Source: Tissierellia bacterium
GTDB taxonomy: Bacteria > Bacillota > Clostridia > Tissierellales > Tissierellaceae
Assembly (NCBI GenBank): GCA_012520755.1
Contig: JAAYNS010000100.1
Location: forward strand, 1-40,815
DNA length: 40,815 nt
Direction of reading: 5' to 3'
Shown: positions 3,913-9,542 of the stretch, in pieces
Position numbering within the stretch: position 1 is the first letter of the stretch
How the letters are laid out: every line of letters starts with the position of its first letter
Program-made: the position numbers and the translations under genes
Notes under the pieces: model-generated
The model's input: only the letters and a program-made list of their open reading frames with translations
The model's database searches: none
What the model was told of the DNA's origin: nothing

Positions 3913-4112
3913 ATTATCCCTCCTTTGATACCGTAATTAATAAATTCTACATAAATATCCAAAATCCTTTTTATCTAGAACTATTTAAGTATTCCATATC
4001 ATATATTATCAAATATAACCATGGAAGACAATGTAAAATTACGTTTAATCGTAGACTATTCATAAATTTTTCATAATTAATAAGCCTGAACAATAAAATG
4101 TTTTCTTCTAAA

Positions 4113-4147
4113 AAAAATCTACCCATTTATTTTAAGGGTAGATTTTT
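4113..4147 (-). terminator. Rho-independent terminator downstream of the RiPP cassette
   Basis: aaaatctaccc-(atttattttaa)-gggtagattttt perfect stem with T tract read on the minus strand. Confidence 0.8.
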
Positions 4148-4158
4148 AATAATTCAAT

Positions 4159-4302
4159 TTACCAAGGCCTGCAATAGGGGCCACAACCATTAACAGGTCC
4201 ACAGTCATCTGGGTAACAACCATCTGTATCCAGTGGATAACAACCGCTAGTCATATGTATTTCCTCTTCTACAACATCCTCAATAGTTAGAAGCTCAATC
4301 AT
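4159..4302 (-). CDS. Putative 47-aa Cys-rich RiPP precursor peptide: MIELLTIEDVVEEEIHMTSGCYPLDTDGCYPDDCGPVNGCGPYCRPW
   Basis: ATG 2 nt after the maturase stop; GGGGGTG ribosome-binding site overlapping the maturase 3' end; acidic leader then a 5-Cys core; terminator follows; absent from the supplied ORF track, evidently because of its length. Confidence 0.85.
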   Translation of the reverse strand: MIELLTIEDVVEEEIHMTSGCYPLDTDGCYPDDCGPVNGCGPYCRPW

Positions 4303-4304
4303 GT

Positions 4305-5513
4305 TTACACCCCCAATCCATTTATAAATTCATCTATATCATACCACTCCCCATCATATGGGTTGTATGTACAATACCATGGTTTCTCTCTTAAATCTCC
4401 ATTAAGGGAATCAGGTCGACAATCATGGCAAGCATAACGATATTCGCAATGCTTACATTCATTCACTTGATCTTTCGTAAAGTCTATAAGATTATGCTTG
4501 ATAATATCTTTTAACTTGTCTTCTTTAATATTCCCATGTTTTACCCTTCTCTCCATAACACAAGGATAAACATTTAAGTCCACATCAATATATAATCTAT
4601 TTGAAAAGCAATTATGTCCTTGCATATTTTTTTCTATAGCCTTGGGAGTTATCTTTTTTTGAAAATGTTTCTTAGTAATTAATTTTTGTTTTAGTAAATC
4701 TTTATCGTATAGGTCCAAATTCGCTCTTCCTGACAACCTTACAAAATCATATCCAGACTTAGGATGAAGAGTCCCAATATGGTTTTCACCAACTTCTATA
4801 TCTTTCATTCTTACATTTGCAACACGGAAAGGAATTTCATTTTCTTTTAATAGTTCTATTGTGCATGTAAGATTATTATAGGACCCCATTGACTTTGTTA
4901 CCTTATCATGTTCAGAAGGAATATTAGAGTAAAGAGACAAAGCTACTTGGCTAATATTATTATCAATTAACTCCTTAATATCATTGTCCTTTATCAATGT
5001 GCCGTTAGTAAATATTTCAATAAACTCAAACTTATTTTTTATATACCTTAACATTTTAGATAGCTTGTCCCCAAGAACATAAGGCTCCCCTCCAATTAAT
5101 TGGATGCGCCTTACCCCCATATCTTCTAACATATCAACGGCATAACAAAAATCCGAGAACTTCATTATGCTATTTGAATACTCATGATATTCAGCCTCAT
5201 TATAACAATGAATACAACGAAGATTACAAGACTTGGTAACTTCAATCCATGCAAATGTTATGTTTGCCTTTTTTATGATTGCTTTATTAAACGCCTTATT
5301 TTCTATTGTTAGAATTTCATAATCCAAAAGTTCTTTTAGAAAAGTATTTTCAGACATAGAAAGCTCTTTTTCCTTTGGTGATAAAAAATGATTAATCATA
5401 TTTAAACCTGATTGATTAATGGAATAAAGACGCCTTTTTTTCAGATCATAAATACAATGTTTTTTTGCACCTTTAACAACATGAATATGATTATGTAAAT
5501 AATAGGTATCCAA
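4305..5513 (-). CDS. Radical SAM/SPASM peptide maturase
   Basis: CxxxCxxC motif in TKSCNLRCIHCYNEAEY; SPASM-type Cys set C(X)nC...CKHCEYRYACHDC...C near the C-terminus; N-terminal region resembling PqqD/RRE (YDLKKRRLYSINQSGLNMINHFL). Confidence 0.9.
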   Translation of the reverse strand: MDTYYLHNHIHVVKGAKKHCIYDLKKRRLYSINQSGLNMINHFLSPKEKELSMSENTFLKELLDYEILTIENKAFNKAIIKKANITFAWIEVTKSCNLRCIHCYNEAEYHEYSNSIMKFSDFCYAVDMLEDMGVRRIQLIGGEPYVLGDKLSKMLRYIKNKFEFIEIFTNGTLIKDNDIKELIDNNISQVALSLYSNIPSEHDKVTKSMGSYNNLTCTIELLKENEIPFRVANVRMKDIEVGENHIGTLHPKSGYDFVRLSGRANLDLYDKDLLKQKLITKKHFQKKITPKAIEKNMQGHNCFSNRLYIDVDLNVYPCVMERRVKHGNIKEDKLKDIIKHNLIDFTKDQVNECKHCEYRYACHDCRPDSLNGDLREKPWYCTYNPYDGEWYDIDEFINGLGV

Positions 5514-5592
5514 CTTTCAACCTCCATAGAATTTATATATCGAATTGTAAAATTAGACAACAATAATTCTACCAAAAAATACATTTAAATTT

Positions 5593-5621
5593 ATTATACA
5601 TAATCATAGGTCCAGTTACAA
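5593..5621 (-). promoter_or_regulatory. Candidate vegetative promoter of the RiPP cassette
   Basis: Minus strand TTGTAA-17 nt-TATAAT (-35 at 5616-5621, -10 at 5593-5598). Confidence 0.5.
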
Positions 5622-5631
5622 CAAAAACATG

Positions 5632-5660
5632 AAAAAGGTCCCAGCCCCTGGAACCTATTC
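5632..5660 (-). terminator. Rho-independent terminator of spoIIID
   Basis: Minus strand AGGTTCCAG-GGG-CTGGGACCT followed by TTTTT. Confidence 0.7.
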
Positions 5661-5912
5661 AGCTTTTACAGTCTCATATTTTAATTTAGTTGCTTTCCCG
5701 CCTCTTATATGACGTTCGGCTTTGTTAATTTCTAAAATTTCCTTTACCATAGATGCCACAAGAGGGTTTATCTTTGGAAGACGCTCAGTTACATCCTTGT
5801 GTACAGTGCTCTTACTAACTCCAAATACTGAAGCTGCTTGTCTGACTGTAGCCTTTTCACTAAGTATATATTTGGCAATCTCTAAAGCTCTTTCCTCTAT
5901 ATAATCTTTCAC
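5655..5912 (-). CDS. spoIIID: Stage III sporulation transcriptional regulator SpoIIID
   Basis: MKDYIEERALEIAKYILSEKATVRQAASVFGVSKSTVHKDVTERLPKINP; HTH; synteny with mbl. Confidence 0.95.
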   Translation of the reverse strand: MKDYIEERALEIAKYILSEKATVRQAASVFGVSKSTVHKDVTERLPKINPLVASMVKEILEINKAERHIRGGKATKLKYETVKAE

Positions 5913-5962
5913 CTTTTTAACCCCCTTCTATTTAAGGACTTTTAATACATACTTATGCGTAT

Positions 5963-6757
5963 TTACTCAGTAATAGAACGTGGATCAATCTTTAAACCAT
6001 CTTTACTTACTTCATAATGTAAATGTGGCTCCATTTTCATTTCAATTTTTGCAGTATCGCCTACGACACTTATGGAATCTCCAGCATTTACATTAACCCC
6101 GGCTTTTACCATTTCTTTAGTTCCTAAATTTGAGTATTTTGATTCTAAACCATTGCCATGATCAATAATTATACATATTCCCCATAAGTCATCCTCAATT
6201 ACTTCCTTAACCGTGCCACTTAAAGGGGCTTTTACCTCTGCTCCTATAGGAGCTTTAATATCAATTCCACCATGATATCTCCATTCATCTAGTGTGGTAG
6301 AATATATCAATTTTTCGTCTGAAAAACTTGTTATAATTTCCCCATCTACAGGCAAGAACCTTGCCTTCTCTTCATCCATTACTAAGTTCTTGTCTTCATC
6401 ATCATCTTCTTCCTCATAATCATCTATGAACTCAATCCTTTCTATCTCTTCAGTTGATGTTTCAACAACTTCATTTTCATTTACTAGTTCATCATCTAAC
6501 TCATTATTATTGAGTATTTCTTCATTAGGGACTCCATCTATATGTGATACCTCGATATTCTCAGGAGTTGAAGCCTTTTCATAATCTTCATTTTCTATTT
6601 CTTCTAGAATTACTAACTCTTCATCTGCTCCATTCCTAGCCTCCCTTAGTTCACTTGTTGAAACATATATTGTTCCTGCTGCCACTACACAAACACAAAT
6701 AAAAAGAATGAGTAAAAATCCATTTTGCCTTAAAAAAGTTATAATTTTTTCTTTCAC
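5963..6757 (-). CDS. spoIIQ: SpoIIQ-like membrane-anchored M23 (LytM) family protein
   Basis: N-terminal TM, acidic linker, HGGIDIKAPIGAEV...DHGNGLESKYSNL...PHLHYEV; position between spoIID and spoIIID. Confidence 0.8.
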   Translation of the reverse strand: MKEKIITFLRQNGFLLILFICVCVVAAGTIYVSTSELREARNGADEELVILEEIENEDYEKASTPENIEVSHIDGVPNEEILNNNELDDELVNENEVVETSTEEIERIEFIDDYEEEDDDEDKNLVMDEEKARFLPVDGEIITSFSDEKLIYSTTLDEWRYHGGIDIKAPIGAEVKAPLSGTVKEVIEDDLWGICIIIDHGNGLESKYSNLGTKEMVKAGVNVNAGDSISVVGDTAKIEMKMEPHLHYEVSKDGLKIDPRSITE

Positions 6758-6910
6758 TTCTCCACCTCCAATAGTAGTATTATTTCCACAATGTAGAAAT
6801 TAATACATATGGCGGAAAATATTTAAATAATTTTTCTCTAAGTAATATATAAAAGAAATCTAAGCTCATGATAAAAAGAACAGTAAGAGTATTTTTTAGT
6901 GTTCTTATAA

Positions 6911-6932
6911 AAAAGATAGGAGTTTCCTCCTA
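6911..6932 (-). terminator. Terminator overlapping the spoIID stop codon
   Basis: Minus strand GATAGGAG-GAAA-CTCCTATC followed by TTTTTT. Confidence 0.65.
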
Positions 6933-7973
6933 TCTAATTTCAACTCCCGAATAATAATGCTCAAGGATTTCTAAATAATTACTCCCCTTATTAGCCATGC
7001 CATTTGCTCCCCATTGACTCATTCCAACTCCATGACCATAGCCATAAGTAGTTATATCAATAATGTTTAAATCCTTATCATAAGCTATAATAAAATTTGT
7101 TGAATTAAGTCCAAATAATTCCCTAAATTTTGTGCCATCTATTATTACATTACCAATTGCAATTTTCTTGATTCTTCCACTATTAGTTTTCTCAATAAGC
7201 TTTATTTTCTCATAGAAATTTTCTAGGGTTATAGCTGCATTAGAATAATTTTCGCTTATTTTATTAACAAATTCATCCCCAGTCATAGTAGTAATGCTCT
7301 TGAACTTAGGTGATTCTTCTTCAAAAGGACTAATAACAGATTTTAGATATGGTAAATCTTGCGAGTAAACATTTACAACATCCTCAGTCATTCCGCCACT
7401 TGTAGAATGATAAAGGGGTTCTATGATTTGTCCTTGGTAATATATTAGTATTCCTTTTGTAGACTCTACAGCCTCTGAAATTTTACTCCAATATTTTTCT
7501 TCCCATTCCTCACCATGTATTTTTTTTAGTTCATCTAAGGATAAATATGCTTGACAGTGAACCCCTATACATAATGGGGCTTTTTTATGATCAGGATGAC
7601 CTTCTTGGTCGTATTTTATACTTCTACTTACTGCATAAGTCCTGGCGGCTATTGCCTGAGCTTTTAAAGCTTCAATGTGAAATTCTGCTGGCATCTCTGC
7701 AGATACCACTCCCTTAATATACTCTTCTAAGTCAAGTTCCAACACCTTATCATTGTAGGGGTTATAAACTCTTATAGTATCTATAAGGTTTTTCCTATTG
7801 TTTTTAGCTTGATCTGATATTATGATTTTAGCTGGTTCCCTATTGTTATTATCAAAGCCTTCCCCTGATACAGCGTTCTCTCTAGGTACAAAATTAATGG
7901 TCTTAACAATAACTGTTGGCATAATAATAGTTATTATCAAGACCGAAAACAAGTAAATCACTAATCTTCTCAT
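6930..7973 (-). CDS. spoIID: Stage II sporulation protein D (lytic transglycosylase)
   Basis: LEEYIKGVVSAEMPAEFHIEALKAQAIAARTYAVSR; GYGHGVGMSQWGANGMANKG. Confidence 0.95.
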   Translation of the reverse strand: MRRLVIYLFSVLIITIIMPTVIVKTINFVPRENAVSGEGFDNNNREPAKIIISDQAKNNRKNLIDTIRVYNPYNDKVLELDLEEYIKGVVSAEMPAEFHIEALKAQAIAARTYAVSRSIKYDQEGHPDHKKAPLCIGVHCQAYLSLDELKKIHGEEWEEKYWSKISEAVESTKGILIYYQGQIIEPLYHSTSGGMTEDVVNVYSQDLPYLKSVISPFEEESPKFKSITTMTGDEFVNKISENYSNAAITLENFYEKIKLIEKTNSGRIKKIAIGNVIIDGTKFRELFGLNSTNFIIAYDKDLNIIDITTYGYGHGVGMSQWGANGMANKGSNYLEILEHYYSGVEIR

Positions 7974-8049
7974 ATCATCCCCTCATCTCCCCAGTATAAT
8001 AAATACTATGAATGAGGATTAGCTAATAGAACAGAAATAGTTCTTGTGT

Positions 8050-8262
8050 CAATTCACAGTTCACAATTGTTTAGGTCATTCTATCGGGTTAAAACCCTTG
8101 CTTCTACAACTTGATAGCAAGCTAGGCCACCTTAGAATAACAACAAAAAAGAGAAGATTCTTAGAAAAATCTTCTCTTTTTACTATTATAATAATTGCAA
8201 ATTATTAATTATCTAATTTTATTTTGTTTTAATTGTGCATTGTGAATTGTGAATTGTTCATT
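8050..8262. repeat. Intergenic element with heptad-repeat ends in inverted orientation; contains a terminator hairpin
   Basis: Left caattcacagttcacaattg; right aattgtgcattgtgaattgtgaattg (reverse complement of the same heptads); inner gtcattct...agaataac. Confidence 0.5.
8143..8180 (-). terminator. Rho-independent terminator downstream of murA
   Basis: aaaaaagagaagatt-cttagaaa-aatcttctcttttt. Confidence 0.75.
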
Positions 8263-8270
8263 ATTGCATT

Positions 8271-9542
8271 TTAAACATTCACTAATTCAAAACTTTTTCT
8301 ATAAATTTTTGCTCCTAAATCGCTAAACTTTTTCTCAATACCGTCATATCCTCTATCTATGTGATAAATATTGTCTATTTCTGTTACCCCATCGGATACT
8401 AAACCTGCTAAAATTAAAGCTGCTCCTGCTCTTAAATCTGTAGCCTTAACAGGTGCTCCTGTTAAACTGCTAGTTCCTTGTACTATGGCAGATCTGCCAT
8501 CAATTTTCACATCTGCTCCCATTCTCTTTAATTCATCAACATGCATAAATCTGTTTTCAAATACTGTTTCAATAGCAACGCTTGTTCCCTTACATATGGT
8601 CATCAAGGCCATAAATTGCGCTTGCATATCAGTTGGAAAACCAGGATATGGCAAAGTTTTTATATCAACTGCTTGTAAATTGTCAGTGCCTATTACCCTT
8701 ATGCTATCTCCATTTTCTATAACTGTACAACCAATTTCTTTCAATTTTGCTATAACCGGCTTTATATGATTTGAAATAACATTTTCTACAACAATATCGC
8801 CATTAGTAATTGCAGCGGCTACCATAAATGTACCTGCTTCTATTCTGTCTGGAATAATTTGATGTCTTCCACCAGCTAGTTTTTTAACTCCTTTAATTCT
8901 AATAGTCGAAGTTCCTGCTCCTTTAATATCTCCACCAAGTTTATTCAAGAAATTAGCTAAATCTACAATTTCTGGTTCCATGGCTGCATTGTCAATAATG
9001 GTTTCTCCTTCTGCCAATACAGCAGCCATCATAATATTTTCAGTTGCTCCCACAGAAGGAAAGTCTAGATAAATCTTATCTCCAATTAATTTGTCTGCAA
9101 ATGCACTTATATTACCATGATCTACATCAATGACAGCTCCTAATGCTCTAAAACCTTTTAAATGTAAGTCTATAGGCCTAGTCCCTATAGCACATCCTCC
9201 TGGTAAGGAGTTTTTTGTTTTCCCTAAGCGTGTCAAAAGTGGCCCCATAACCAAAAAGGAAGCCCTCATCTTACTCATTAATTCATAACTAGTTTCATAA
9301 TTATTGATATTAGCAGAATTTATTTTAATAACATCTCTGTCTAAATATTTGACTTTTGCTCCTAGGGATGTTAATACCTCACACATTATTTCTACATCTT
9401 TTAACTTAGGAACATCTTCAAGTATTATATCTTCTGTCCCCAATAAAGAAGCAGCTAATATTGGTAGTGCCGAGTTCTTAGCTCCACTTACTCTAACATT
9501 ACCCTTTAAGTGAAGGCTTTTCTCCACCATTATTTTCTCCAA
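8271..9542 (-). CDS. murA: UDP-N-acetylglucosamine 1-carboxyvinyltransferase
   Basis: VRVSGAKNSALPILAASLL; catalytic Cys in LPGGCAIGTRPIDLHLKG. Confidence 0.95.
   Translation of the reverse strand: MEKIMVEKSLHLKGNVRVSGAKNSALPILAASLLGTEDIILEDVPKLKDVEIMCEVLTSLGAKVKYLDRDVIKINSANINNYETSYELMSKMRASFLVMGPLLTRLGKTKNSLPGGCAIGTRPIDLHLKGFRALGAVIDVDHGNISAFADKLIGDKIYLDFPSVGATENIMMAAVLAEGETIIDNAAMEPEIVDLANFLNKLGGDIKGAGTSTIRIKGVKKLAGGRHQIIPDRIEAGTFMVAAAITNGDIVVENVISNHIKPVIAKLKEIGCTVIENGDSIRVIGTDNLQAVDIKTLPYPGFPTDMQAQFMALMTICKGTSVAIETVFENRFMHVDELKRMGADVKIDGRSAIVQGTSSLTGAPVKATDLRAGAALILAGLVSDGVTEIDNIYHIDRGYDGIEKKFSDLGAKIYRKSFELVNV

Follow-up and report, generated by a model that had tools for sequence, protein, structure and literature searches.

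A short Cys-X-Pro peptide paired with a radical-SAM/SPASM maturase: a candidate new RiPP family in Clostridia and Synergistota

In a contig of 40,815 nucleotides from a Tissierellia bacterium (JAAYNS010000100.1, analysed whole and called the window here), a radical-SAM gene is followed by a small reading frame that carries no annotation. The locus raises the question of whether this frame is a gene at all and, if so, what the neighbouring enzyme would do to its product.

The peptide gene and the selection acting on it

The frame lies at 4159..4302 on the minus strand and encodes the 47-residue peptide MIELLTIEDVVEEEIHMTSGCYPLDTDGCYPDDCGPVNGCGPYCRPW, as an earlier note on this DNA had claimed. 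We also confirmed the spacing given there for its five Cys residues (C-X7-C-X4-C-X5-C-X3-C), its start 2 nt past the TAA of the maturase gene, and the presence of GGGGGTG at 4314-4308. This Shine-Dalgarno-like sequence (4308..4314, minus strand) is within the 3' end of the maturase gene, and its G run ends 7 nt 5' of the peptide ATG; at the same position the locus L003 of genome G023 has GGAGGTG. The strong terminator described 3' of the peptide was likewise found, as an intrinsic terminator at 4110..4147 (minus strand) with a hairpin of -15.8 kcal/mol and a U tract.

Alignments suggest a division of the peptide into a putative acidic leader of residues 1-18 (4249..4302, minus strand), in which MIELLT is conserved, and a putative core of residues 19-47 (4162..4248, minus strand), in which each of the five Cys is followed by X-Pro. 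A short acidic leader and a tight intergenic junction, both reported earlier for the window, are retained in the orthologues.

Being small and unannotated, the ORF might be a chance reading frame, or a leftover beside an ordinary radical-SAM gene. The earlier note had proposed coding constraint as a check, and dN was lower than dS in each pair compared. Between the window and its nearest orthologue (G003, loci L002/L031), the peptide dN was 0.037 and dS 0.287. The three amino-acid changes were all in the leader, so that the core dN was 0, and there were seven synonymous changes. For the L003 and L034 peptides the values were 0.070 and 0.43, and for the window and L003 they were 0.27 and 1.21. 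These values rest on few codons, yet they agree with one another, and they indicate that purifying selection is acting on the peptide. From these sequence comparisons we conclude that the ORF is a real gene, since its orthologues adjoin orthologous maturases elsewhere and all core changes between the closest copies are synonymous. Conservation, selection and pairing across phyla together refute the chance ORF, to which we attach practically no weight.

The maturase and its two-gene cassette

The maturase gene occupies 4305..5513 on the minus strand; it has a TTG start, a GGAGG ribosome-binding site at 5521..5525 (minus strand), and encodes a protein of 402 residues that matches Pfam Radical_SAM and SPASM above their cut-offs. 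Its CX3CX2C motif is at C96/C100/C103 and its SPASM Cys residues are 302, 318, 353, 356, 362, 365 and 381. All ten of these cluster Cys (three in CX3CX2C and seven C-terminal) were invariant in an alignment of 12 family members, and they would fit one SAM-cleaving and two auxiliary clusters.

Among the best 25 matches listed, no NCBIfam maturase model reached its cut-off, and the matches mostly cover the shared radical-SAM core. Among solved structures, that of the sactisynthase SkfB is nearest in sequence, and SkfB also heads the Foldseek list for our maturase model. The latter ranking is only a hint because the models are weak (pLDDT 47 and 51): relatives are too few, and a good structure would need a deeper alignment. 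An RRE domain was not detected, the hhalign comparison with PqqD giving 1% probability. The weak AlphaFold model suggested a bbb-aa arrangement at the N-terminus (pLDDT 54-77), while the single-sequence model was uninformative; the conserved N-terminal 85 residues are the place where an RRE would sit. The maturase of Clostridium sp. Cult1 (L034:4959-6107) has unalignable first residues and is missing about ten internal residues, although its peptide is intact; this copy may have decayed or may reflect an assembly error.

The maturase and the peptide alone make up a cassette of ~1.58 kb (4039..5622, no strand assigned). When the window was compared with the sister genome G002 (L045), about 1,584 bases were extra: G002 lacks the cassette in its spoIIID-mreB interval, which is otherwise collinear, and the two flanks join there at a single point. 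In the sister genomes G001 and G002 mreB comes straight after spoIIID, an arrangement shared by several further genera of the family, and the insertion of the window is also present in G003. In G023 (L003, L053) the spoIIID-mreB interval is intact and the cassette is located elsewhere. As G001 and G002 lack the pair in this interval and G023 has it elsewhere, the two genes were gained or lost together, and the comparison indicates that they move jointly. No mobility genes were found inside the cassette, no protease or exporter was evidently linked to the pair, and Rfam gave no match in the window.

The spoIIID terminator lies just upstream of the insertion point (5636..5656, minus strand), and in two sister genomes the cassette fits exactly between this terminator and the leader region of mreB, while the other sisters are without it. 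Beside it, 5655-9542 (minus strand) holds a sporulation and wall cluster of spoIIID, an M23-type peptidase gene (spoIIQ-like), a spoIID-like gene and a murA-like gene. A sporulation role, suggested by the spoIIID neighbour, was set aside, since in relatives, among them Synergistota, the cassette has different surroundings. To our knowledge, Synergistota are not spore formers.

Distribution of the family

The maturase alignment was used to scan ~85,000 species genomes, and profile searches were also carried out. The maturase clade was found paired with short peptides in 13 genomes of Clostridia and Synergistota, a small number of unrelated bacteria from guts and digesters. The earlier note had called for a search for the peptide beside homologous maturases, and a C-X-P peptide was present in all 13 genomes with a readable neighbourhood. 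Two further genomes were left out: the contig of G1116 ends within the maturase, with a probable transposase gene upstream, and that of G1064, a more distant relative, ends ~190 bases upstream. In G1064 (L104/L105) the more distant maturase adjoins a second radical-SAM gene. In a tree that took in the family members and other radical-SAM proteins of related genomes, the family members all fell into a single clade (support 0.97), and the partial G1116 protein grouped with the closer members at 0.999.

A C-X-P peptide adjoins the maturase orthologues at each level of identity (86, 62-63 and 42-45%). The G003 maturase is 86% identical to that of the window and has its peptide at the same position. 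G023 and a second MAG (L032), both at 62%, and Clostridium sp. Cult1 (63%) have 41-residue versions in which the leader likewise begins with MIELLT and the peptide ends in CGPVNGC-[GS]PYC. In two Synergistota genomes (G1052 and G1068), two different peptides stand consecutively before the maturase; such tandem C-X-P peptides with one maturase are seen at L098:1157-1495 and L097:1226-1501 (Synergistales), beside leu biosynthesis genes. The clostridial G302 has an upstream peptide, MLELLTKEVKTYEQITMCFPDCDPVFVGCSPVEQMQECDPTPCGPDYGSDCMPDCDPSDDY, which bridges the groups with a window-like leader and a Synergistota-like core. A more distant pair at 30% identity, also with an upstream peptide, was found in G274 and G307. 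The G274 peptide (L112:3222-3707, minus strand) has 161 residues with 29 Cys and twelve QCRPCPP repeats, and the G307 copy (L113, from 794 onward) is partly masked. Near these two loci we read from the sequence xylanase-like genes and, at L112, a protein with a cohesin-like domain. The peptide is downstream of the maturase in the group of the window and upstream in Synergistota and G302. As the gene order differs between groups, the adjacency is more than inherited synteny. Together, the orthologues support the earlier claim that the locus holds a conserved Cys-rich precursor, missed in annotation, and a radical-SAM/SPASM maturase of its own.

The clade is rare. The peptide profile was matched in 3 of 28 genomes of the family and 4 of 250 of the order. 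With the maturase profile, matches were obtained in 7 genomes among 183 of Synergistales and in 4 among the 392 sampled from the class. The peptide profile retrieved nothing further from the class and phylum samples. As G302, G274 and G307 were recovered by the maturase profile, the peptide profile evidently misses divergent members. No family member was found in viral contigs, phages or plasmids. Six of the peptides had no NCBIfam match at E up to 10, and the remaining peptides had none in NCBIfam or Pfam; curated libraries miss the family because the precursors are tiny. We did not find the family in the main text of open-licence papers, and an earlier mention under another name is possible. 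The pairs are best read as a new radical-SAM RiPP family, not described in the libraries searched.

The Cys-X-Pro motif and the proposed chemistry

When we examined ten peptides, Pro was at Cys+2 in 53 of the 58 Cys, and 53 of the 60 Pro were at this position. The five exceptions comprise a lone leader Cys in three peptides and, in two, the latter Cys of a CC pair. In a non-redundant set, 46/51 Cys were in C-X-P, while 20,000 shuffles of the cores gave a mean of 8.2 and a maximum of 19. The window peptide was the only one with at least three C-X-P units among 2,809 control ORFs of 20-250 aa, taken from 74 sequences (293 kb) that comprised the window and loci without this maturase. The internal echo repeats (GCYP, CGP) that had been noted before are present; we would describe them as instances of this conserved motif.

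The nearby Asp residues had also been brought into the proposed chemistry together with Cys. The comparison does not support Cys plus nearby Asp as what defines it, since Asp is variable among the members and missing from the twelve-repeat core, while Pro at Cys+2 is near-invariant. Asp is at Cys+3 in 27 of the 58 Cys, at Cys+4 in 10 and at Cys-1 in 22, and D or E is at Cys+4 in 18, so that CX3D/E is not conserved. The repeat core of G274 has no Asp after residue 47. These alignments indicate that the conserved features are Cys and Pro, and that Asp, though common, can be dispensed with, as in the G274 repeats, which have none.

These counts bear on a PapB-type ranthipeptide, in which the Cys sulphur is joined to the beta-carbon of an Asp four residues on. 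PapB works on CX3D/E motifs (PMC9413430), two CX3D units are present in the window peptide (C21-D25, C29-D33), and the Asp residues counted at Cys+3 and Cys+4 also speak for this reading. Freyrasin (PapA/PapB) and SCIFF (CteA/CteB) also resemble our pair in having a short multi-Cys precursor that adjoins a radical-SAM/SPASM maturase, the latter in Clostridia too. However, the conserved motif of the new family is C-X-P and not CX3D, the maturase scores 56 bits against a PapB model cut-off of 340, and no RRE was detected in it. Cys-to-Asp bonds are thus possible in the window peptide but, on the sequences compared, cannot be the rule of the family, and we consider a PapB-type product unlikely.

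The sactipeptides, in which the Cys sulphur is bonded to an alpha-carbon, would be a sub-case of a cross-linked RiPP. Their acceptors vary, which suits a family with no conserved acceptor besides Pro; SkfB is the closest solved relative, and the StsB and AlbA models match six of the six members tested. These matches (68 bits against a cut-off of 625, and 64 against 850) are far under the cut-offs and mostly cover the common radical-SAM core. SkfB, AlbA and StsB are alike in enzyme type, whereas the new family has no linked immunity or export genes and its peptide is acidic with C-X-P repeats. Since variable acceptors are tolerated, alpha-carbon bonds fit better than the PapB-type Cys-to-Asp bonds, and a sactipeptide is a tenable if tentative possibility. 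The clostridial Cys-rich peptide maturase CcpM (TIGR04068) also has a Cys-rich partner, and its match starts at residue 10 and therefore includes the N-terminal domain, but the window maturase has 60 bits against a cut-off of 500. Assignment to PapB, CcpM, AlbA or StsB was rejected, as the cut-offs were missed.

We also considered a metal- or cluster-binding mini-protein, in which the enzyme alters a Pro, Asp or aromatic residue and the Cys are left free. The very regular C-X-P spacing and the 29 Cys of the repeat member would suit metal chelation, and no exporter is linked. Against this, the aromatic residues at Cys+1 are not conserved, and the characterised and reviewed Cys-rich substrates of radical-SAM enzymes are thioether peptides (PMC8326336, PMC8172795); we think this reading improbable.

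From the conserved pairing, the peptide is very probably the substrate of the maturase. That it is a RiPP precursor in which the Cys of the C-X-P units are cross-linked by this dedicated enzyme is the reading that we consider probable. A thioether is the bond type favoured, with a somewhat better than even chance, because S-C bonds are present in the multi-Cys substrates so far characterised for this type of enzyme (PMC8326336, PMC8172795). In this proposal, translation would begin with the maturase and probably re-initiate 2 nt further on at the peptide, and the terminator would end the cassette. The maturase would bind the short acidic leader (MIELLT...EE) and cleave SAM at the CX3CX2C cluster, and the resulting 5'-deoxyadenosyl radical would abstract a hydrogen from the Cys-rich core. 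Electrons would pass to the two auxiliary SPASM clusters as the Cys sulphur is bonded to a nearby carbon, and repetition over successive Cys-X-Pro units would yield a multiply cross-linked peptide. Leader removal and export would be carried out by unlinked proteins. Pro would act as a conformational director rather than a reaction site; it may keep the loop in place, or may take part in the reaction itself. The latter would make Cys-X-Pro itself the reaction site of an undescribed RiPP bond (e.g. from the Cys sulphur to a carbon of Pro(+2), repeated along the peptide), for which we see only a small chance. If true, Clostridia and Synergistota would have a new class of peptide, with small rings in tandem.

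For the SCIFF ranthipeptides, wide occurrence in Clostridia argues against an antimicrobial role (PMC8326336, a review). The new family is in contrast rare, with a patchy distribution and no linked genes for export or immunity, and gives no clear hint of its role. It is a compact, putative two-gene radical-SAM RiPP family defined from sequence alone, with a motif unlike that of the characterised thioether peptides, and is present in two phyla with swapped gene order. The natural 12-repeat substrate in one branch would ease the reading of the chemistry by mass spectrometry, and the question of the radical acceptor is approachable with two genes.
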